From Symbiodinium natans (Eukaryota > Sar > Dinophyceae > Suessiales > Symbiodiniaceae): a stretch of DNA of 64,000 nucleotides. The notes below the pieces were generated by a model. The model had not been told where the DNA came from. It made no database searches and was given only the letters and a program-made list of their open reading frames with translations. The stretch lies in NCBI GenBank assembly GCA_905221605.1, contig CAJNDS010002529.1, positions 270,160 to 334,159 of the forward strand, written 5' to 3'. The position numbers were made by a program, and so were the translations under genes. Shown here one piece after another: positions 7,577 to 24,153 of the stretch. Every line of letters begins with the position of its first letter. Position 1 is the first letter of the stretch.

Positions 7577-10500
7577 CTATACGCCCCTTCTCGGGGTGTG
7601 AGTCCTGTAACTGCAATCTACAAAACCTATAACCCTATAACCCCTCCGCCAACAAGGTTTAGGGTTCGGGGTTGAGGGTCGACGCAAGCTTGCTTTTCTC
7701 GCCCACTCCTCGAGCACGCGCCCGGCTTCCCGGCAGGGCTGCTCCGCGGCCGCCTGGCGGGCCGTCTTTCCCTGCCTTGGAGACCGACTGATTCATAATG
7801 CTTTGATAGTAATTCTAGTAGTATGGGGTCTATGAACCCTAAACCCTAAACCCTAAACCCCAAACCCTAAACCCTAAACCCTAAACCCTAAACTGCCCTA
7901 AACCAGAACCTACAAAGGTCATAAGAAGCCCTAAGCCCTCTCAGGGCTCATTTCGTCCCCAAGGTGCCGGTCGGCGATGTCTGGGTCGGCTCTGACCTGG
8001 AGCCTGGGTCTTCTTCAGGATAGGGGAATTAAATTTAGGGTTTAGGGTTTAGGGTTTAGGGTTTAGGGTTTGGGGTTTAGGGTTTAGGGTTTGGCCCAAG
8101 AATTCCCCAGAGTCAACCCGATAAGAAGGCGGGCCTAGAATCCCCACAATCAACCCCATACTTGGCTGCACTTAGCAGGGTAGCTATTAACTAAGTTTTT
8201 AGCTGCCTTGTTAAGAAACCCAATAAACCCAAAAAGGCTAAGGATGTAAAGTTAATCCCCATAATCAATCCGATCATGTCCCATAGTCTACCCTTTAGTC
8301 AGGGCATGTATAGGGTTTAGGGTTTAGGGTTTAAGGGGTGAAGGGGTTTAACAGCCCATGCTGGTCCCAGACTGCTGGGAGGATCCAAAACGTAGAACCC
8401 CCACCCCACAGAGTACCCGATGCTACCCCTAAACCCTAAACCCTAAACCCAAAACCCTCTACTACTACTGGGTCATTCTTATGGGAAGGATCCTTTTAGG
8501 GGTCTTCGAGGTTTAGGGATTCTGGTTGGGATTCTGTGTTCAGGCTCAATGCCCAGGGATGAACAAATGTACACACAAAGATTTGCGCTGTCTGCGCCTT
8601 GGAGACTTCCTACCTCTGTGCCGCAGAAGCGTAGATTTCAAGAAGCCTGCTACGAAAAAAACCCAAAGATGAAGAGACACAGGTCTTCTGACCCTAAACC
8701 CTAAACCCTAAACCCTAAACCCTAAACCCTAAACCCTAAACCCTAAACCCTAAACCCTAAACCCTAAACCCTAAGCCCAGCAGCAGCCTCCGGACAAGCC
8801 GGGCGCAATCGGCCAGGGTGGCAAGGTGGAGGGCCGTCCGGCCCTCCTTGTCCAGCAGATCAACGCCGGCCCCGGCCTTCCTTGGTAGCTTAGTAACTAA
8901 GGGTTTAGGGTTAAGGGTTTAGGGTTTAGGGTACTTTTTTTGGGGTTGGCTACTGTAGAAGGGAACCCTGAACCCCAACAAAAGGGGGCCAAAAGGGTAC
9001 CACGGGGCTACCAAGCTTCAGCAACTTTCGCACCATGCGTGGGTGCCGCCGACTCGCCGCGTAGTGAAGGGCTGTGCGGCCACGGCCGTCGGCTTTGTCT
9101 ACGCTTGCCTCGGATGGCCCCTGAAAGCACTCTGAAAAATATTCCCTGCATGTGATCCTCTTAAACCCAATAAGGGAACAGATGCAATGTCCCAAGGTTT
9201 ATAGGGTTTAGGGTTTTGGGTTTAGGGTAAACCCTAAACCCTAAATCCTAAACCCTAAACCCTAAACCCACCTAGTTGCCTTGGCAGCCAAGAGTGTGTG
9301 GGCGCTGGCTCCCGACTGCGCGAGGGCGGCGTGGTGGAGGGGCGTCATCCCGCCAGGTTCCGCGAAGTCCACGGAGTCCTTGGTCTGAGGGAAGCTTCAA
9401 TTTCTAAGGGTTTAGGGTTTAGGGTTTAGGGTTTAGGGTTTAGGGTTTAGGGTTCAGGGTTTAGGGGTTCAGGGTTTAGGGGTTAGAGGCTAGCAAAGCT
9501 GGCCGGCTCTTAGTAGGGAATGAGGGAAGGAGGGCTCTACATAATCCCTTAAAGGGTATATGTGGGGCCCTAATTAATTCCCTCATTCCCTACTAAGAAC
9601 CAGGGGCTACCAAAGGGCTCCATGGAGAATGAGGCCCATATAGAACTGTGAAATGTCTTCAATTCCAAGTCCTGCGGGGCCAAATGAACCCTCAAATTGG
9701 GACCATACACCTTGTACTACTCTGGAACCATCAACCCTTTCAGCCCTAAACCCTAAACCCTAAATCCTAAACCCTAAACCCTAAACCCTAAACTCTAAGC
9801 CCCAAACCAGGCCCAGGTGTCCCCTGCACCATCGAGCAAAAGCTGCACGATGGGCGCAATGTCGGCCCAGGAGGCCAAGTGAAGCGCCGCTTTGCCATCC
9901 GGCCCCGGTTGGTCCTTGTCCTTGGGATGTTCCCCCTTATACTAACAGTATAGGGTTTAGGGTTTAGGGTTTAGGGTTTAGGGTTTAGGGATGTTCCCCC
10001 TTATACTAAGTCCCTCATAGGGATTAGAAAAAGGGGTACCATAATGTCTACTAAGGGCTGTTAGTATAAGGGGGAACACCCCAACCTTGTCCTTGTCGTT
10101 TTTTTGGGTCGCCTAGGCCTAGGAAACAAATCTCAGGGTTTAGGGTTTAGTGCTTAGGGGTTCAGTTTGTTGGGGTTTGTATGCCCATGATTACATGTCA
10201 TTACGGCGTGCTGCTGAATGCTTTTCCAGTAAAGGGTGGGGGGGGGGGGGGTAGCAGGTAGGTTGTAGGGTCATAACGAGGGTACCCTTTTGTGAACCAA
10301 GAACCTTGGGAACCAAACGAAGCCTAAAATTGGGGTCATATACCATATACTGCCAAAATCACTATTAAGGTAAGATGAACCATAAACCCTTTTAGGGGTC
10401 ATGTCGTCCCCAAGGAAAGAAGGTCAACAAAAACCACCGCTCCTAAACCCTAAACCCTAAACCCTAATGTTAACCTAGTATTACTAAAGCCCCTAACATT

Positions 10501-13062
10501 AAAGTACGCCAGGTGTCCCGGCCGCAATAATAAAGCCCTGGAAATAAAGTACGCCAGTCGGGGCTTGTTTTTTTTTGGGGGGTCCGTTTTCCTTCTGATC
10601 CTCTCTGATTCTCTCTGATCCTCTCTAATTCTCTCTAAGGAAAGGAATCCTGAGTGATTCTCCTCTCTGATCCTCTCTCTAATTCTCTCTAAGGAAAGGA
10701 ATCCTTATTCAAAGGGGCCTCACTCTATTTGGGGGGGGTTTGATTGAAGGGGGGGGGAGGGGGGGGGGTTTATTACTAGGTCAACATTAAACCCTAAACC
10801 CTAAACCCTAAACCCTAAACCCTAAACCCTAAACCCTAAACCCTAAACCCTACCAGGCGTCAGCCCTGGCTTCTAAGAGCCAGCGCGCGATCTTCGCGTC
10901 GGAGCGGCCCCAGCCGAATCGCAGTGAGTGATGCAGCGCCGTCCTACCCCCGACATCGGTGACCTCGAGGATCACATGAGCCCTAAAAAGGATTAGGGTT
11001 TAGGGTTTAGGGTTTAGGGTTTAGGGTTTAGGGTTTAGAGTTTAGGGTTTAGGGTTCAAGGACCACATGTTAAACCCTAAGAGGGATTAGGGCCTCATAC
11101 ACCGGCCTCACTGCTTCTGAGGGGTTCATAAAACCGGACTTATGACAGGGCTTGTAGTAGAGGGTATACATGACCCCCAATTTTAGGATTCACTTGGGCG
11201 TTTACGAAAACAAGGGACCCCCAATATATACCCCGAAATAGTAGGACTCCCTTACAAACGGATCCCCAACAAGGTGCCCCTAAGTTCGGAAACCCCCACT
11301 TGGTCCCCGAGGGACATCCACCCGGGCGCGGGCGTCCAGCAACAAGCGCACAGCAGATACGCCTTACTTCTTCAATTACCAAGCAATTAAACATAAGTTG
11401 CAACTTTACTCTTCCTACTACAAAGGGCAGCCCGAGAAGATTAAAGACGATTGGCTAAGCTTGGTAGCCCAGTGGCCAGATTATGAACAAGGCACCCGTT
11501 TGGGGATTGGCTACCTTACTAGCTCATGGGTGGGATAGTATTACACATTCAAATGTATATTCCTGATTGGGTTCAGTACCCTTGAAAATGCAAAATATTA
11601 CTCAACTATGACAAAGTTCACCCTAAACCCTAAACCCTAAACACTAAACCCTAAACCCTAAACCCTTGAACCCCAAAACGGACACCAAGCAAGGCGCTGC
11701 GGTTCAAGGACGCCACGTGCAGGGCTGTTCCTTGGGGGCCAAATGAACCCTAAAGATGGGGTCATCTTCCCTATACTACTATAACTACGATTAAGGAACC
11801 CTAAACCCTAAACCCTAAACCCTAAACCCGAAACCCGACACCCCAAACCCTAAATCCTACTAAGGTAATATGAACCATGAACCCTTTCAGGGTTCATTTC
11901 GTCGCCAAGGCTCTCCCCATCTTGTCCGCGACGTCGGCCCCGGCACCCGCATCCAGCAGTCGTCGCACGATCATCACAGCGCCGCTCATACCTTAACTCT
12001 CCTAATGTGGTACCTTGTTTAGGGTTTAGGGTTAAGGGTTTAGGGTGGTCTACTAGAATCCAATGGAACGAACCCCAAAAAAATGAGCTGCAATAGGAGC
12101 CTTCAGAGGTACAAGCCAAATGCAGAGCGGTTCTTCCGTCGCAGTCGGCCAGATCTCTGGCGTACCCAGCCCGCAGCAAGGAGTCAGCAATTTCCGCACG
12201 GTTTGTGCGGGAAGCCACATGGAGTGCTGTCATTCTTCTGTAGTCGATCGCGTCCTTCTCCCAGCCACCCTCCAAAAGAAGCTGCGCCACGGCAACACGG
12301 TTCTGCAGAGTAGCGAAGTGAAGAGCGGACCAACCATTCGCGTCAGCCAGGTTGCCATCTGCACGAGCGTCCAAAATCATGCGGAAGATGTCGGGGAACC
12401 CAACACCCGCGTGCAGCGATGTCCGGCCAGCCAGGTCGGCTACGTTCACGCCCGCCCGGGCCTGCAGAAGCAGGCGCACCACGTCCGGGTGCGGCTCCCG
12501 AAAGCGTGCTCGACTGACAACTTGGAGAGCATGGTGGAGAGCTGTGCGGCCACTCTCATCAACAATGTCCGTGCCGGCCCCTGCCGACAGCAAGAAGCGC
12601 ACGATCTGGACCAGGCCTAAACTCGATGCGTCGTGAAGACACGTTGTGCCATGCGCGTCAGCAGTGTTGGGGTCTACGGGGCGTTGCAAAAGCTCCTCCA
12701 GACGGGCCTCGTTTCCATTACGTGCAAACTGACGCATCCGGCACTTCTCAGATTCCTCCAGGCCCACGAACGGGATCATGATCAGCTGCACGTCCGTGTC
12801 CGTCGTTGGACATACGCCCTCATCCCGCAAAATCGTGCCTTCGTGCAGGAGTCTTTGGGCAAAGCGTGGGAGCCCCCGAGCGGATTGAAGGTGGTCTTTC
12901 AAGGACCGCACGTCACTCACGGCCTCGGCAGGAAGGGCTGCCAGCTCTTCTCCGGATGCGCTCCAGACGCGCAAGGTCATTGCCGCAAAAAAAACGCAGG
13001 CAGCAAACCCTAACAGAACACCCTTGAGCCTAACTGCAACGAACATGCACGGCATTGTACAC
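7577..13062 (-). CDS. Ubiquitin-like plus ankyrin-repeat protein, about 606 aa, at least 11 exons
   Basis: Exons on the minus strand, chosen by splice signals, frame and the ankyrin consensus: 13062-12113 (ATG at 13055), 11991-11914, 11730-11698, 11362-11316, 10963-10862, 9920-9822, 9378-9280, 9108-9020, 8880-8785, 8003-7968, 7775-7577 (stop TAG). Coding length from 13055 is 1,821 nt and in frame throughout. Residues about 7-26 are hydrophobic (possible membrane anchor). Residues about 27-98 match the ubiquitin-like VWSASGEELA...DVRSLK...PRFAQRLL...DVQLIMIPF module that precedes ankyrin repeats in dinoflagellate proteins. About 13 ankyrin repeats follow (DGRTALHLA type); three exons are 99-102 nt, one repeat each. 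Role: probable protein-protein scaffold; no enzymatic motif seen. The last about 30 codons run into degenerate CCCTAAA sequence, so the true end may lie earlier or be spliced. The exon structure is inferred without transcript data, but the agreement of frame and consensus at all ten junctions makes it strong. Confidence 0.88.
7776..7967 (-). mobile_element. Intron 10: introner-like element, GC donor
   Basis: On the minus strand the intron reads GCA-CCTTGGGGACG ... GTCTCCAAG, and the next exon starts GCA. CCTTGGGGAC and GTCTCCAAG(G) are terminal inverted repeats; GCA is a 3-nt direct repeat. Removing the intron restores an ankyrin DxxGKTA motif across the junction. The interior has about nine CCCTAAA units on the plus strand. 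The same CCTTGGGGACGAAATGA end occurs in intron 2 and at 10304-10415. Confidence 0.8.
8004..8784 (-). other. Intron 9: 781 nt, GC donor, starts in a telomere array
   Basis: The intron begins GCTGCTGGGCTTAGGG and passes at once into about 12 TTTAGGG units (8692-8775 on the plus strand as CCCTAAA). It ends ACCCAG, and the next exon begins GCT, a direct repeat of the donor. A second array lies at 8035-8090, and further TTTAGGG/CCCTAAA units at about 8310-8330 and 8425-8450. The remaining interior is unique sequence with no recognised exon. Confidence 0.75.
8881..9015 (-). mobile_element. Intron 8: CTTGGTAGC introner element with 4-bp target duplication
   Basis: The element starts CTTGGTAGC (8881) and ends GCTACCAAG (9015) on the plus strand, and is flanked on both sides by CTTC (GAAG on the coding strand; 8877-8880 and 9016-9019). 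The intron is GAAG plus the element (9019-8881); the exon resumes with the second GAAG. Splicing restores an uninterrupted ankyrin helix, RKLLKAGAGVD. The interior contains TTTAGGG units and a GGTTGGCTACTGTAGAAGGGAACC block shared with other family members. This is the clearest case here of a transposon acting as an intron. Confidence 0.85.
9506..9600. mobile_element. MITE-like hairpin inside intron 6
   Basis: The left arm CTCTTAGTAGGGAATGAGGG and the complementary right arm CCCTCATTCCCTACTAAGAA match at 22 of 23 positions and enclose about 50 nt. The hairpin sits within intron 6 of the ankyrin gene (9821-9379) and so looks like a nested insertion in an intron. Confidence 0.75.
9921..10087. 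mobile_element. Inverted-repeat element CTTGGGATGTTCCCCC, nested at the end of intron 5, with a TTTAGGG insert
   Basis: Left end CTTGGGATGTTCCCCC; right end GGGGGAACACCCCAA. CTTGTC flanks both sides on the plus strand (GACAAG on the coding strand), consistent with a 6-bp duplication. The left terminal 22 nt is repeated exactly at 9988-10009, and the space between the copies holds TTTAGGG units. The left edge of the element is the AAG acceptor used for exon 6 of the ankyrin gene. Related copies lie at 20395-20493, 24967-25074 and, as a half, at 26657-26705. Confidence 0.7.
10304..10415. mobile_element. Element of the CCTTGGGGACGAAATGA family inside intron 5
   Basis: The left end is CCTTGGGAACCAAACGAAGC and the right end is the approximate complement, GGGGTCATGTCGTCCCCAAGG. 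Near-matching AAGAA occurs just outside both ends. It has the same termini as the elements that form introns 2 and 10 of this gene, but here it is nested in the 941-nt intron 5. Confidence 0.65.
10581..10712 (+). repeat. CT-rich tandem duplication (TCTCTGATCC / TCTCTAATTC)
   Basis: Two copies of a block made of repeated CTCTCTGATC and CTCTCTAATT words followed by TCTCTAAGGAAAGGAATCC, inside intron 5. It is followed by G-rich runs at about 10730-10770 and a CCCTAAA array at 10786-10852. Confidence 0.7.
10786..10853 (-). repeat. CCCTAAA array at the start of intron 5
   Basis: About nine CCCTAAA units. On the coding (minus) strand the array begins within about 12 nt of the exon 5 donor (GAC-GCCTGGTAGGGTTTAGGG), so the telomere-like sequence is almost contiguous with the splice site. 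Confidence 0.9.
11731..11913 (-). mobile_element. Intron 2: introner-like element, GA donor
   Basis: On the minus strand the intron reads GAG-CCTTGGCGACGAAATGA ... TCATTTGGCCCCCAAG and the exon resumes with GA. The two ends are inverted repeats over about 20 nt with three mismatches. Splicing A|GAG...AAG|GA restores the ankyrin motif GRTALHVAS. A TTTAGGG array and variants lie in the middle. Confidence 0.8.
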
Positions 13063-13154
13063 CTGGGACTCTTTTTACCTACCTACAGGTTAGTAGCAAC
13101 TACCCCTGAATTAGTAGGTATAACCCAGAAAACTGTAGGTAAATAGGGTCCCCC

Positions 13155-13245
13155 CTAAACCCTAAACCCTAAACCCTAAACCCCAAACCCCAAACCCTAA
13201 ACCCTAAACCCTAAACCCTAAACCCTAAACCCTAAACCCTACCAG
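13155..13245 (-). repeat. CCCTAAA array in the intron upstream of exon 1
   Basis: About 12 CCCTAAA or CCCCAAA units. On the coding strand the array begins 8 nt after the GT donor of the candidate upstream exon, the same arrangement as in introns 5, 7 and 9. Confidence 0.85.
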
Positions 13246-13249
13246 GCAC

Positions 13250-13349
13250 CTCATGCGGGAGTTTCCCCGGGCTCTGGGATGAGGCTCCAGCTTCTTTGGT
13301 GGCTCGGCTCTCCGAAGCTCGTGAGCCCCTGGAGCCCGGCATTCAAGTC
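13250..13349 (-). other. Candidate upstream exon (5' UTR or N-terminal) of the ankyrin gene
   Basis: The block lies between CTCAG|GACTTG (acceptor-like) and CATGAG|GTGCC (GT donor). Joining it to 13062 (CCCAG|GTGTAC) continues the reading frame of exon 1 and gives the same pattern as the other introns: the intron starts GTG, the next exon starts GTG. An in-frame ATG at the exon end would add four residues before the ATG at 13055. The intervening 187 nt contains a CCCTAAA array and an inverted repeat (about 13065-13152). The block could equally be the 5' UTR with a spliced-leader acceptor at its start. Confidence 0.5.
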
Positions 13350-17150: not shown

Positions 17151-18177
17151 TGAATCCTAAACCCTGCGAGCCCTAAACGCTACTCCGACATGCAAGGAAC
17201 AGCGTTGACATTTGGGTCCAATACAAGGTGGGTAGTGCGGTGACACTGACATGGTGACAACACATCACACGCCCTCAACATCAACTCGACCGTGTGCCAC
17301 ATAACTCGCACACGTGTCTGCATCCCTAAACCCTAAACCCTGAACCCTAAACTGCCCTAAACCCTTAAACCCTTAAACCCTTAAAACCCTTAAAACCCTT
17401 AAAACCCTTAAAACCCTATAAACCCTTCAAACCCTATAAACCCTATAAACCCCATAAACCCTAAAACCTAAGCCCTAAACCAGCACTATCTGCCCATAAT
17501 TGGCATTGACGTCGGAAAGCGGGTGCTGTGGTATAACGAGGGGCATGCCTGGCTGCCTGGAAATACAAGGGGACCTTGCAACCAAAAGCAGTGAACCCTA
17601 TTCCCTAAACCAGGTTTAGGGTTTAGGGTGTATACTTGGGTTGAGGGGGTACCTCTATGTCGGGAAGTACCCGAAGTGCTAAAGCCCGTAAGGCCTGTAG
17701 CCTACCCAGCAGCCCGGCGGACACCAAAAAAGCTAGCAAAGCACCTTTCCGACATATGATCCCCTTCAAAACCCAAATGAATAAAACATTTCCCATCGGC
17801 CTACCTGGCCTCAACCCCTCAACCCTCAAACGCTCAGACCCTCCAACCCTCCAACCCTAAAACCCTAAAACCCTAAACCTTACAACCCCAAACCCTGAAC
17901 CCTCAAACCCTGAAACTTAAAACCCTAAAACCTGAAACCCTAACCCCCCTACAAGCCCTTTTGTCCTTGAAGCTTTCGGCTGACCCTAAACCCTAAACCC
18001 TAAACCAAAAACCCTAAACCCTACAGAGGCCCTCTTGCCCTTGAAGCTTTCGGCTCACAGTGTTGCCTGGCGACTTGCCAACGACTCACCGGGACCTGGG
18101 CAAGGGTCGCTGCACGGGTTGGGTTGAGGGTTTGGGGTTGAGGGTTTGGGGATTTCGGGTTTAGGGTTTAGGGTGTA

Positions 18178-18450
18178 GGGTTTTGGGGTTTTGGGGTTTT
18201 GGGGTTTTGGGGTTTTGGGGTTTTGGGGTTTTGGGGTTTTGGGGTTTTGGGGTTTTGGGGTTTTGGGGTTTTGGGGGTTTGGGGTTTTGGGGTTTTGGGG
18301 TTTTGGGGTTTTGGGGTTTTGGGGTTTTGGGGTTTTGGGGTTTGGGGGGTTTTGGGGGTTTTGGGGGTTTTGGGGGTTTTGGGGGTTTTGGGGTTTTGGG
18401 GTTTGGGGCTTGGGGTTTTGGGGTTTTGGGGTTTTGGGGTTTTTGGGGTT
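18178..18450 (+). repeat. TTTTGGGG tandem array (hypotrich-ciliate-type telomere unit)
   Basis: About 20 nearly perfect TTTTGGGG octamers, then TTTTGGGGG nonamers, then mixed TTTTGGGG and TTTAGGG-like words to about 18760. The unit equals the Oxytricha/Euplotes telomere repeat but lies inside a TTTAGGG landscape, so divergence and local expansion of TTTAGGG is the simplest explanation. Strong G-quadruplex potential on the plus strand. Apparent GFWGFGVLGF-type open frames across it are repeat artefacts. Confidence 0.92.
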
Positions 18451-19110
18451 TTGGGGTTTCGGGGTTTAGGTTTTGGGGTTTAGGGTTCGGGGCTCAAGGT
18501 TTTGGGGTTTAGGGTTTGGGGTTAGGCTTTTGGGGTTTAGGGTCTGGGGTTTAGGGTTTGGGGTTTAGGGTTTTGGGGTTTAGGGTTCTGGGTTTAGGTT
18601 TTTGGGGTTTAGGGTTTGAAGGTCAGGGCCTGGGGTTTAGGGTTTTGTGGTTTAGGGTTTGGGGTTTATGGTTTGGGCTTTAGGGTTTGAGGGTTTAGGG
18701 TTTGGGGTTCAGGGTTTTTAGTTTAGGGATTAGGGTTTCGGGTTTAGGGTTTGGGGCTGTAGGGTTTAATGCTAACAGGGTGTACCGACACAATAGGCCT
18801 GATTGCAAAGAAGCCTGAGACTAAAGTTGAAACAAAGCAAACTCTTCCACATTCAGGTTCGTTCACTAAGCTGCGTAGGCCAAGTGAAAACCATGGCTCA
18901 CAAACTAACCATGACGGCAATCTTTTGGAAACCAGCAATGTAGACCTTGGTCATGTAATCAGCAACCATGACATACAAGCAGCGGAGGAAAAAAACGAAC
19001 AATAAATGTACGAAACAAGCGAAGTAGCAGATCAGCTAATCGGAAGCTTCGCCACAACCGATGAAAAACATCCAGCATAGTTCAGACCACTCACGCCAAC
19101 AATACTTCAA

Positions 19111-20394: not shown

Positions 20395-20493
20395 CTTGGG
20401 ATGTTCCCCCTTATACCACAAGTAACAGTCCTTACAATCGGGGCTACTACAATCCCTATTAAGGACTGTTAGTACAAGGGGGGAGATCCCAAG
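20395..20493. mobile_element. CTTGGGATGTTCCCCC inverted-repeat element with GTAT target duplication
   Basis: CTTGGGATGTTCCCCCTTAT at the left and its complement (ending GATCCCAAG) at the right, with GTAT directly outside both ends (20391-20394 and 20494-20497). It is a 99-nt complete member of the family found at 9921-10087. On the plus strand the arrangement G|GTAT-CTTGGG...CCCAAG|GTAT is exactly that of the introners in the ankyrin gene, so it could be a plus-strand intron. Confidence 0.78.
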
Positions 20494-21072: not shown

Positions 21073-24000
21073 CTGAGAAAAACCCAGGGGTTAGGGTTAG
21101 GGTTTAGGGTTTAGGGTTTAGGGTTTAGGGTTCAGGGTTCAGGGTTCAGGGTTCAGGGTTTAGGGTTTAGGGTTTAGGGGTGTATTTAGGGTTTAGGATT
21201 AGGGTTTAGGGTTTAGGGTTTAGGGTTTAGGGTCAGTAGAGCCGTGTCACTTCTGTTTGGGGTTCATGCTTTGTTGACGCCTGAACATAAAATGTTCGAC
21301 CCTCCCAGCCAGGGAATGATGTAATGGAACGCTAGCATGTGTGTATGGATACGTCCAAGGGAAAGCATCGCACATCAACCGTAGCCAGCTGCTTTTTCAC
21401 TTTTTGCCTGCTAAGGACATGCTAGCTGAGGGCTCCACAGCTCCTACGAAGCGTAAGCCTCGAACTGAGAAGCAGCAGTTTCAATACGTTCGACGGGGAG
21501 CAGCGCAGCATTGCTTAGGACAAACCCACCAGGGCAACTCAACTTCTTTCAGGGTACCCTGAACCCTAAACCCTAAACCCTAAACCAACCCGATATTCCC
21601 AACACTCCCAAGAGCCTCCTAACACTCCCTTCCTCTATACCCCCCTTAGAACCTTAACAAACAATTCTATGCTTAATCGCCTCTTGGGTTATACATAAAC
21701 AGAAACCCCCCAATAAAAGTTTAACTTTTCGCTCCCTTCATATGAAATTAGGGGAACCCTAAGTCCCACCTCGAATTCCCAAGCACAATGAAAGGTTCGC
21801 TAGGTGCCGGGCTTGGGGGATTTAAAGGTTAGTGCTGGGGCGTCAGGGAGCCACACCCTAAACCCTAAATCCTAAACCCTGAATCCCAAAGTCCCACGCT
21901 AAAGCCTGCACCCTTCCACGCGGGCCCCAAGCCCGGACACGCCCACAACACCCGCAAACCCTCGCGTTAGAATCAGGGCATCCGTTTTGGGGTTGGTTAC
22001 TCCATTAAGGGAACCTTAGAATCGAAAAACAAAAAGAGAAAAAGGATACCACTGGGCTGCTAGGCCTCTACAAAGCCCCAAAGCACTGAAGCTTGAGCCC
22101 TCTGAGTCCCGCCGCCAACGGACCCGAGGCGACGTGAAGACCCAGGGCCTTAGGGAGCAGAGGGCCAGGGCCTATAGTTCTTGAGGGTTTAAGGGTTTTA
22201 GGGCTTTGGGGGTTGTTGGCTTTTTTGGGGTCTTTCGGGTTTAGGGTTTGTAGGGCTTAGAGGGCTTAGGGGGCATTTCGGGCAATTGGGATTTATAGGG
22301 AGTCGGAGATGTTTCATGATCTCAGTTCCTCAAGTCTGCTGAGCACCAGCAAGAGCAAAACACAGGAAAGCAGGGCCAACGGGGTGTCCTAGTGCTTTTT
22401 GGCTCATAGGGTCCCCCAAACGTCCCACCACCCTAAACTCTAAACCTGAACCCTGAGCCGAAGGTTGAGGGCCCCAAGCATCTACAACTCTGAAGCCTAC
22501 CATTGCAAGGAGTATTTGGGAGGCACCCGTTTGACTAAACAATGCTTGCCAAGACCTCATTTCGTGTCCAGCAACTTGGCCAAGAATATAGGTGTCGGAA
22601 TGAAGACGAATAATTTTCCCCTTGGGGCAGCCATGAGAGCTTAGGGTTCAGGGTTTGGTTGAGGGATTAGGGGACTCTACCGAGATTCTAATGGCAGTTA
22701 TTGGGGCCCCAAACGTGGCCCATTACTTCCTTGAAAGAATGGTAAGTCAGGGGTTTTCCCTTTTGAGGGCCCACACCAAGGAACCATGTAACTACCCTTA
22801 AGAGAGATGCCCCGGGCTTTCCCCTAACACACCAGGGTTAAGGCTAAGGGTTTACAGAGATGAGGGCTTTACAGGGTTTATGGATTAGGGTTCAGGATAA
22901 CATCTTAGACCCTAAACCCTAAACCCTAAACCCTAAACCCTAAACCCTAACCCTAAACCCCCAAACGCAGCACGCCCTCCACCTGTTTGACACCTCTGCC
23001 TCCGCGAGCTCCCAAGAGTTCAGATGAGAGCGTACGCAGCCAGGCACCAACTAGGGCCGACAGGGCTCTTAGGGCTCTCGTGGGGTGTTTGTTGGGGTTC
23101 TAGAGGGTTTTGCTTTTTTGTAGGGTTCTAGAGGGTTTTGTTTTTTGTAGGGTTCTAGAGGGTTTTATAAAGGATTTGTTAGGGATTGGACATGATGAGC
23201 TTTGCAGGTGTTTCATCGAGTTGTTATGAGTTGTCATAGGTTGCTTATAAAGCTTTGTAGGGTGTTAGGCGTTAATAGGGTTCTTAGGGTTTTTTGTTTG
23301 AGGGTTTCGGCTGTTTAGGGTTTAGGGTTTGGCTCTAGTGGGGGCATAGGGTCGAAGAAGCCGAGCGCGACGGCAGCGCGGAACTCTCCAGGGTTTAGGG
23401 TTTAGGGTTTAGGGTTTAGGGTTTAGGGTTTAGGGTTTAGGGTTCAGGTCCAAGAAAAAATCGAGGAGCTTCGAGGAAAGTTTCGTTTCTTGACTTTTGA
23501 ATAACTTCAAGTTACCACATTTTCACAGCAATACTTATCTAAATTCACCTTGGCATGCAATTAAAAAAAGAGGCACATTTAGGCTTTCGAGCTGCCTTTC
23601 CCATCCCGGAGCCTCCGAATACAAGAAATTATGGCCACGGATCCGGATCACGGTTTACGGTTTACGGTTTACGGTTTACGGTTTAGGGTTTACGGTTTAG
23701 GGTTTAGGGTTTAGGGTTTAGGGTTTAGGGTTCAGGGTTTAGGGTTTAGGGTTTAGCGGGGAGAGGGGGGAGGGGGGGGGGGTACTCTAACTTAGAAGGG
23801 AAATTTCACTTGTGCAGAGTCAGAAGTACAAGATAGCTACAGTTGTTTATGCATATAAACATGATCAGGGTTCTTCTGAGATGACGCTTTCAAGTAGGGA
23901 CCAAATTTCGAGAGCCGGCCGTATGGTGGAGGAGATGTCCCTCAGTACCCCTTTTTGCCCCTCTTTGAAGCTTGAGATTAACAGCGCAGGGTTCAAGCTT

Positions 24001-24153
24001 ACTTGGAGGTTCATGGTACTTACTAACCAATTATAACTGTACTTATAACCCTACTTATAATACCCCTAGAGGGCCTTATAGGGGCTATCCCACTTATAAG
24101 TAGGGTTATAAGTACAGTTATAATTGGTTAGTCAGTACCATGAACCTCCAAGT
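24001..24153. mobile_element. Large near-perfect hairpin element (ACTTGGAGGTTCATGG)
   Basis: Left arm about 60 nt (24001-24060) and right arm about 60 nt (24092-24153) are almost exact complements, around a 30-nt loop. A diverged right-half copy lies at about 16313-16385. Ends again contain CTTGG and CCAAG. It has no coding capacity and no certain target-site duplication. Confidence 0.8.

Follow-up and report, generated by a model that had tools for sequence, protein, structure and literature searches.

A 64,000-nucleotide (nt) stretch of the Symbiodinium natans genome (GenBank assembly GCA_905221605.1, contig CAJNDS010002529.1, positions 270,160 to 334,159; called the window below) carries on its minus strand an ankyrin repeat gene in which the first bases of each of the ten predicted introns are repeated as the first bases of the next exon. 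All ten introns also hold at least two units of telomeric repeat, as (TTTAGGG)n or (CCCTAAA)n, a feature absent from the initial annotation of this sequence, which had read every intron of the gene as an introner. Taken as a whole, the evidence makes it probable that most of these introns were born as introners, that the telomeric arrays were inserted later, and that the orientation of the arrays was most likely filtered by splicing.

Splice junctions throughout were predicted from the reading frame and from sequence motifs. When the gene was read from the ATG at 12980 to the stop codon at 7577 (window coordinates) and its 11 exons and 10 introns (I1 to I10) were spliced in silico, an open frame of 582 amino acids (aa) was obtained. 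A Pfam search with 547 aa of the joined protein returned Ank_2 in seven stretches along the submitted sequence (E=7.6e-70); a ubiquitin match near the N-terminal start was below threshold. The in-frame joining of exons at ten junctions, as initially proposed, was therefore borne out. The introns range from 121 to 941 nt, and for every one of them a placement with donor G and acceptor AG|G exists; since these two rules were assumptions, they are no evidence in themselves. The 33-residue ankyrin period, judged from the translation, independently fixed the spliced length for I1, I2, I3, I7, and I8. A homologue search with the spliced protein gave 6,741 matches; among the 120 matches listed, none was usable as an orthologue for intron comparison, and the top-ranked homologue beyond the window's own frame showed 35% identity. 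The true 3' end of the gene is uncertain because the last part of exon 11 reads as a telomere-like peptide. The predicted features, in the order of transcription, are as follows.

About 13063..13249, minus strand: candidate upstream intron, GTG...GTG, outside the tested frame; TTTAGGG array from about position 13 (taken as 13058-13247 in the array-position statistics)
12113..12980, minus strand: exon 1, from the ATG; joined frame and Pfam Ank_2
11992..12112, minus strand: intron I1, GTA/GTA, 121 nt; CCCTAAA array in the 3' half
11914..11991, minus strand: exon 2, joined frame
11731..11913, minus strand: intron I2, GAG/GAA (2/3 match), 183 nt; family A introner; TTTAGGG array mid-intron
11698..11730, minus strand: exon 3, joined frame
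11363..11697, minus strand: intron I3, GCG/GCG, 335 nt; TTTAGGG array in the 5' part
11316..11362, minus strand: exon 4, joined frame
10964..11315, minus strand: intron I4, GTC/GTC, 352 nt; CCCTAAA array near the 3' end
10862..10963, minus strand: exon 5, joined frame
9921..10861, minus strand: intron I5, GAC/GAC, 941 nt; telomeric arrays close to both ends
9822..9920, minus strand: exon 6, joined frame
9379..9821, minus strand: intron I6, GAC/GAC, 443 nt; TTTAGGG close to the 5' end, CCCTAAA close to the 3' end, and a central nested fold-back
9280..9378, minus strand: exon 7, joined frame
9109..9279, minus strand: intron I7, GCAA/GCAA, 171 nt
9020..9108, minus strand: exon 8, joined frame
8881..9019, minus strand: intron I8, GAAG/GAAG, 139 nt; inverted ends CTTGGTAGC, 9/9
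8782..8880, minus strand: exon 9, joined frame
8004..8781, minus strand: intron I9, GCT/GCT, 778 nt; TTTAGGG close to the 5' end, CCCTAAA close to the 3' end
7968..8003, minus strand: exon 10, joined frame
7776..7967, minus strand: intron I10, GCA/GCA, 192 nt; family A introner with a TTTAGGG array
7577..7775, minus strand: exon 11, to the stop codon; joined frame

From I1 to I10 the junction repeats are GTA, GA, GCG, GTC, GAC, GAC, GCAA, GAAG, GCT, and GCA. The repeat of 2 to 4 nt that had been described for nearly all introns was thus found in 10/10 and measured at least 3 nt in 9/10. The first three bases of an intron matched the first three of the next exon in nine of ten cases within introns, compared to 5.6% across introns, and none of 200,000 permutations reached nine such matches. 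Identity at positions 1 to 4 was 1.0, 1.0, 0.9, and 0.3 within introns and 1.0, 0.29, 0.26, and 0.21 across introns; that is, the match stopped after position 3, and position 4 was near background (0.3 versus 0.21). A repeat of near-fixed length (3 nt) is what a transposase would leave. To exclude the choice of junctions as the source of the repeats, the repeat criterion was dropped, and every junction within +/-24 nt that kept the protein length and offered AG|G and a donor G was collected. A single candidate was left in 8/10 introns and two in I2 and I4, and the junction used was among the candidates every time, with the longest repeat. We therefore rejected the possibility that the repeats are an artifact of junction choice. 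Length changes by whole codons permit extra junctions, which were counted up to 12 nt and itemized for 3 nt; a single one of the itemized junctions carried a 3-nt repeat, in I9.

The inverted intron ends of the CCTTGG...CCAAG type, initially described for the introns of this gene in general, were recovered in about half of the introns. At the 3' end, CCAAG was found in I2, I5, I6, I8, and I10 (5/10) and CCCAG in I9, and the remaining ends were TTAAG (I1), GTAAG (I3), TCGAG (I4), and CCGAG (I7). At the 5' end, CCTTGG directly follows the first three bases in I2 and I10, CTTGG follows GAAG in I8, and CCTGG lies one base further in for I5 and I6; the sequences there are CCTTGC (I3), CCTCGG (I4), CCTCTG (I1), CTAGG (I7), and GGGCTT (I9). 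When the two ends were matched locally, the inverted-end score was 7.2 within introns and 5.6 across introns (permutation p = 0.031), a signal carried mainly by I2, I8, I1, I10, and I4. Inverted ends were clear in I2 (26 columns, score 17) and I8 (9/9) and fair in I1, I4, and I10.

Relatives of the introns were sought in 235 kb, made up of 21 stretches of the same genome (207.8 kb; individual loci are given as L numbers) and the first 27 kb of the window. Eight of the ten introns (I2, I3, I4, I5, I6, I7, I8, and I10) had a relative elsewhere at E<=1e-3, and I1 and I9 had none at that threshold in the 235 kb compared. For I5 and I6 the similarity lay partly in nested elements rather than in the intron ends, and the statement that every intron is an introner could not be upheld. 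The 5' end of I8 has relatives at L022 and L018, a sequence related to I7 lies at about 1000-1095 of L011 and is free of arrays, and the sole relative of I10 in this set was I2. These last two introns are accounted for by one family (family A, CCTTGGGGACGAAATGAACCCT... and CCTTGGGGACGAAATGA...), of which the I4 ends appear to be a degenerate version. A second family (family B, CTTGGGATGTTCCCCC...) supplies the 3' end of I5. Besides I2 and I10, three copies were placed in the window.

About 9921-10085: family B copy within I5
10302..10421, minus strand: family A copy nested in I5, array-free, with GAA/GAA flanks
20395..20493, plus strand: clean family B copy, array-free, 99 nt, with GTAT on both sides and inverted ends matching at 16/18

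Repeated GACAAG(GAC) flanks the family B copy with which I5 ends (window 9921-10100), so that I5 may be a pair of introns, or the element may have entered a 3' splice site that was already present.

Family A also lies between the exons of another gene. Its end with the leading G, searched genome-wide with at most one mismatch, gave 833 + 846 = 1,679 matches, compared to 0 + 0 for the reversed pattern. A search of the whole genome with I10 gave at least 76 matches (40 of 736 candidates scored), many of them carried by the telomeric array; 11 of the places found were examined, and 7 showed family A ends by eye. Three of the seven copies join openly at a donor G and AG|G, namely, those at L032 (GAT/GAT), L033 (GAG/GAA), and L037 (GTA/GTG). 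The joined L033 peptide was assigned by Pfam to the BT1 transporter family (E=1.5e-12, residues 6 to 59), with the junction after residue 27; the joined peptides of L032 and L037 had no significant Pfam match. The genome search for copies in other genes that the initial annotation had called for was thus answered at L033, and at L032 and L037 family A probably lies between exons of two further genes, as judged from the open frame and the junction. Similar introns at unrelated positions in different genes, as introners should provide, were found for family A only, and the end matches show that this family has many copies in the genome. Together, the 3-nt repeats, the inverted ends in about half of the introns, and the presence of family A in another gene support the introner mechanism that had been proposed, short of extending it to every intron.

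Telomeric repeats are abundant well beyond this gene. The 24-mer CCCTAAACCCTAAACCCTAAACCC gave 1,068,777 forward and 1,069,729 reverse overlapping matches in 759 Mb, compared to 25 and 30 for the reversed pattern, and array density was patchy, with values between 0 and 3.3 per kb over the sixteen stretches sampled. All array statistics omit loci L001-L008 and L030-L041; the duplication tests and subsequent counts also omit the window beyond 27000 (retroelement-like sequence), and islands or gaps containing N were omitted from the counts. Within family A the array position varies: the nested copy at window 10302-10421 has no array, those of L035 and L037 carry it after AAAAGGG, and those of L031 and L032 carry it after CCTTAATAG..., with a similar arrangement in I2. 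Likewise, the I7 array is missing at the matching place of the L011 relative. Since copies of one family are array-free or hold the array at different sites, the arrays are later insertions into older elements, and we rejected the idea that they form an integral part of the element. As for interstitial telomeric insertions, related copies without the array are thus known, in this case for family A and for the I7-type sequence. Direct duplications were found around arrays of I5 at 9924 (22 nt), L028 at 9344 (18 nt), the window at 17965 (17 nt), L027 at 4136 (16 nt), and L023 at 3765 (12 nt). In addition, a diverged direct duplication flanks the CCCTAAA array of I4, and by eye a repeated flank adjoins the array in L031 and L034.

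At L023:3771-3847, an apparent reading frame is interrupted by a 77-nt insert that is mostly telomeric and has a 12-nt duplication. With the insert cut out at its duplication, the frame is open again and the junction has a donor G and AG|G; a search for a second copy of this reading frame returned only the frame itself, so that the exon is putative. Possibly, a telomeric insertion with its own duplication could itself become an intron in this way. At window 23389-23447, near-pure TTTAGGG repeats separate two short open stretches whose frames can be joined, with GT...AG or G...AG|G splicing possible; these exons are putative, and the joined stretches gave no significant Pfam match. A long TTTTGGGG-like repeat array adjoins TTTAGGG arrays at about 18160-18512 of the window.

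The arrays are polar: over the ten introns plus the upstream candidate, the mean relative position was 0.28 for TTTAGGG (10 arrays) and 0.75 for CCCTAAA (9 arrays; p=0.0009), and the nearest array was CCCTAAA upstream of 7/11 exons and TTTAGGG downstream of 8/11. From the end of the CCCTAAA array to the exon, the distance was 25, 29, 30, 28, 33, and 30 nt for exons 2, 5, 6, 7, 9, and 10, respectively. Four tight brackets enclose the ankyrin exons E5, E6, E7, and E9, with arrays 7 to 33 nt off on both sides, and arrays of at least 40 nt at both ends were found in exactly the three longest introns, I5, I6, and I9. The same order was seen with this gene omitted. Gaps of 80 to 140 nt separated 42/81 CCCTAAA..TTTAGGG neighbors, compared to 12/77 of the opposite order, and at 20 to 100 nt on the CCCTAAA 3' side of 276 arrays the guanine-plus-cytosine (GC) content was 0.557, compared to 0.514 on the other side. 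The paired Wilcoxon value for this asymmetry (p=2e-10) is too small because neighboring arrays share an island; the asymmetry was positive in 12/15 loci with three or more arrays. Motif profiles around arrays outside the gene showed no sharp AG|G peak at a fixed distance, only the GC difference. Genome-wide, CCCTAAA-(85-115 nt)-TTTAGGG gave 107,320 matches, compared to 41,057 for the opposite order, whereas at a spacing of 300 to 330 nt the counts were 143,516 and 134,098 (ratio, 1.07); these are counts of overlapping start positions rather than of loci.

The explanation that we favor begins with small nonautonomous inverted-repeat elements, or introners, whose insertion would have given most introns of the ankyrin gene. 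Each insertion would duplicate a short target, usually 3 nt starting with G; the left target copy would become the intron start and thus the 5' splice site, and the element end (...CCAAG or similar) would become the 3' splice site. With the duplicated target as the donor and the element end as the acceptor, splicing would therefore restore the original codons. Short telomeric arrays would enter the introns later, at different sites in copies of one family, and a few of these insertions would duplicate their site, as in telomerase repair of a DNA break. The arrays that survive are polar, with TTTAGGG towards the 5' splice site and CCCTAAA about 25 to 33 nt before many 3' sites. Splicing appears to be the most likely filter: sense TTTAGGG offers many TTTAG|G acceptors, which would be harmful near the 3' end, and CCCTAAA in that place is AG-free, ends at the expected place of a branch region, and may act as a branch or pyrimidine region.

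Several observations weigh against parts of this scheme. Inverted ends are weak in I3, I5, I6, I7, and I9. A blind scan for CTTGG...CCAAG with 3-nt repeats gave 2/462, fewer than the 7.2 expected, and the same scan for CCTTGG...CCAAG gave 7/108 versus 1.7 expected; this weak and contradictory result was given no weight as support. Inverted ends matching at 13/18 or better were seen in 54/4006 near pairs versus 46/9187 far pairs, counted on both strands and consisting mostly of tandem or palindromic sequence, a result that is likewise weak. Four of the seven family A copies (L031, L034, L035, and L036) lack a 3-nt repeat in the orientation tested, and since a join that has no repeat can also stay open by chance, as over 102 aa in L035, an open frame on its own is weak support for L032 or L037. 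For the arrays, duplications of a 12-nt word adjoining them were rare (8/244 versus 3.0 +/- 1.3 in control intervals), and looser duplication tests gave no excess over random intervals (11 versus 40 expected and 9 versus 8.4), with an excess seen only over re-paired flanks (9 versus 0.3). With so few abutting repeats and no excess over random intervals in the looser tests, site duplication is unsupported as a general rule for arrays. The polarity also has exceptions: the TTTAGGG arrays of I2 and I10 lie mid-intron (0.55 and 0.54), the short CCCTAAA of I7 lies at 0.41, exons 1, 3, 4, 8, and 11 have no full bracket, and the L033 array lies mid-intron as CCCTAAA in the sense of the gene. Moreover, I2 keeps TTTAG|GG and I7 keeps CAG|GG shortly before the 3' end; therefore, AG avoidance is not the whole cause of the polarity, and it gives no reason for the rarity of CCCTAAA in 5' halves.

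Polarity might instead come from manufacture, a possibility that we regard as somewhat unlikely. While elements were being cut or breaks repaired, telomerase would extend the DNA ends still attached to exons, with TTTAGGG at left ends and CCCTAAA at right ones, and exons would therefore resemble rejoined miniature chromosomes. The order CCCTAAA-exon-TTTAGGG is indeed the orientation of real chromosome ends, it is strand-symmetric, and it prevails genome-wide (107,320 versus 41,057); the arrays of I5, I7, and I9 also start about 13 nt into the intron, right after GTAGGG, GTGGG, or TTAGGG, motifs in register with TTTAGGG. On the other hand, array sites vary within one family, a simple intronic break gives no position-dependent orientation, and the asymmetric spacing, 7 to 28 nt after four 5' sites and 25 to 33 nt before six 3' sites, is a better fit to splicing. 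A broader proposal, to which we give a little less credence still, is that arrays are regular in introns genome-wide, that telomerase-type addition at exon-attached ends is coupled to the birth or upkeep of introns, and that the arrays act in splicing, either by pairing of sense and antisense arrays across long introns or with CCCTAAA as the branch region. The pairing of both arrays across long introns is a guess.

The boundary repeat could also be a splicing signal, such that dinoflagellate introns of any origin evolve a matching GNN by which the two sites are paired or proofread. We consider this quite improbable: the repeat is present even where inverted ends are unclear, as such a signal would predict, but the family B copy at 20395-20493 carries GTAT/GTAT in surroundings where no exon is known, and the family A copy at 10302-10421 has its GAA/GAA inside I5. 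Even less probable is an origin of the introns in staggered double-strand breaks repaired with filler and with no transposon, where the repeats would be filled-in ends and telomeric repeats would be one kind of filler. Arrays with flanking duplications, as at window 17965, L028 9344 (18 nt), and L023 3765 (12 nt), are in keeping with such repair, as is the 77-nt L023 insert that could splice out exactly at its duplication; yet break repair should give variable lengths, and the repeat is of near-fixed length, at least 3 nt in 9/10 introns with position 4 near background, and a related element sits between the exons of another gene (L033). It is similarly doubtful that the CCCTAAA..TTTAGGG islands are a nonexonic dispersed repeat with inverted telomeric ends, for although most island coding scores do not exceed their own composition shuffles (24/57 do) and six peptides read or joined from islands had no Pfam match, the 57 islands (gene omitted) include 5 similar pairs only, their coding score is above that of the +- gaps (6.05 versus 4.23, p=0.0065), and the E5, E6, E7, and E9 brackets, with arrays 7 to 33 nt off on both sides, enclose ankyrin exons.

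Elsewhere in the window, the minus strand of 28224-64000 holds very long frames (2593, 900, 1188, 645, 1356, and 2500 aa and more), which by eye resemble giant copia-type retroelements present twice in nearly identical form; the stretch includes a run of N. This retroelement-like region accounts for the strong base skew, and no telomeric arrays were found in the window beyond 25.9 kb. A fold-back element with 18/18 inverted ends CTTGGAGGTTCATGGTAC and TA on both sides lies at 24002-24152. In a sampled stretch from elsewhere in the genome, L028:410-4300, perfect and near-perfect palindromic repeats with CCCGGG and CCCGGC ends form a cluster.

Repeated intron boundaries in dinoflagellates were reportedly described by Mendez et al. 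in 2015. An introner mechanism has already been published for Symbiodinium: those of Symbiodinium microadriaticum (Gozashti et al. 2022, PMC9860276) are alike in their short target duplication and inverted ends, whereas the duplication is 4 bp there and mostly 3 nt here, as compared by features, and the introns described here hold telomeric arrays and belong to at least two families in one gene. Introns of Amoebophrya (Farhat et al. 2021, PMC7789003) have boundary direct repeats of 3 to 5 nt and inverted repeats of 8 to 20 nt at their ends, and its introner elements thus resemble the introns of the ankyrin gene; its splice motifs are very varied, whereas a donor G and AG|G serve for all ten junctions here. 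The dinoflagellate introners of Roy et al. 2023, as cited in a passage of a review (PMC11453091), are likewise transposon-born introns, and the same passage gives 12,253 introns from recent introners in Polarella, with telomeric arrays going unmentioned. For the arrays, the telomeric sequences inserted at breaks in mammals offer a parallel, since they too lie in older sequence and sometimes have a site duplication; in the horse (PMC7215372), site duplication was the sole change in 3/66 loci. Against those 66 horse loci stand 2.1 million overlapping 24-mer matches in 759 Mb here, and at spacings of exon size their orientation is biased. No article recognizable as reporting such arrays in introns of dinoflagellates came up in open-licence PubMed Central searches. 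The telomeric arrays with their preferred orientation are the unexpected and most unusual feature of this gene, and an introner origin is of a known kind.

Among explanations for bursts of intron gain, introners are leading candidates, and an ankyrin gene with a boundary repeat at all ten introns is a compact test case for them. If, as the overlapping counts suggest, tens of thousands of exons are bracketed by telomeric repeats, then either splicing filters insertions made by telomerase or telomere addition helps to make introns. Either answer would tie the biology of telomeres to break repair and to the evolution of introns in a group whose genes are very rich in introns, and in such genomes telomeric brackets may serve as a simple signal for gene finding.

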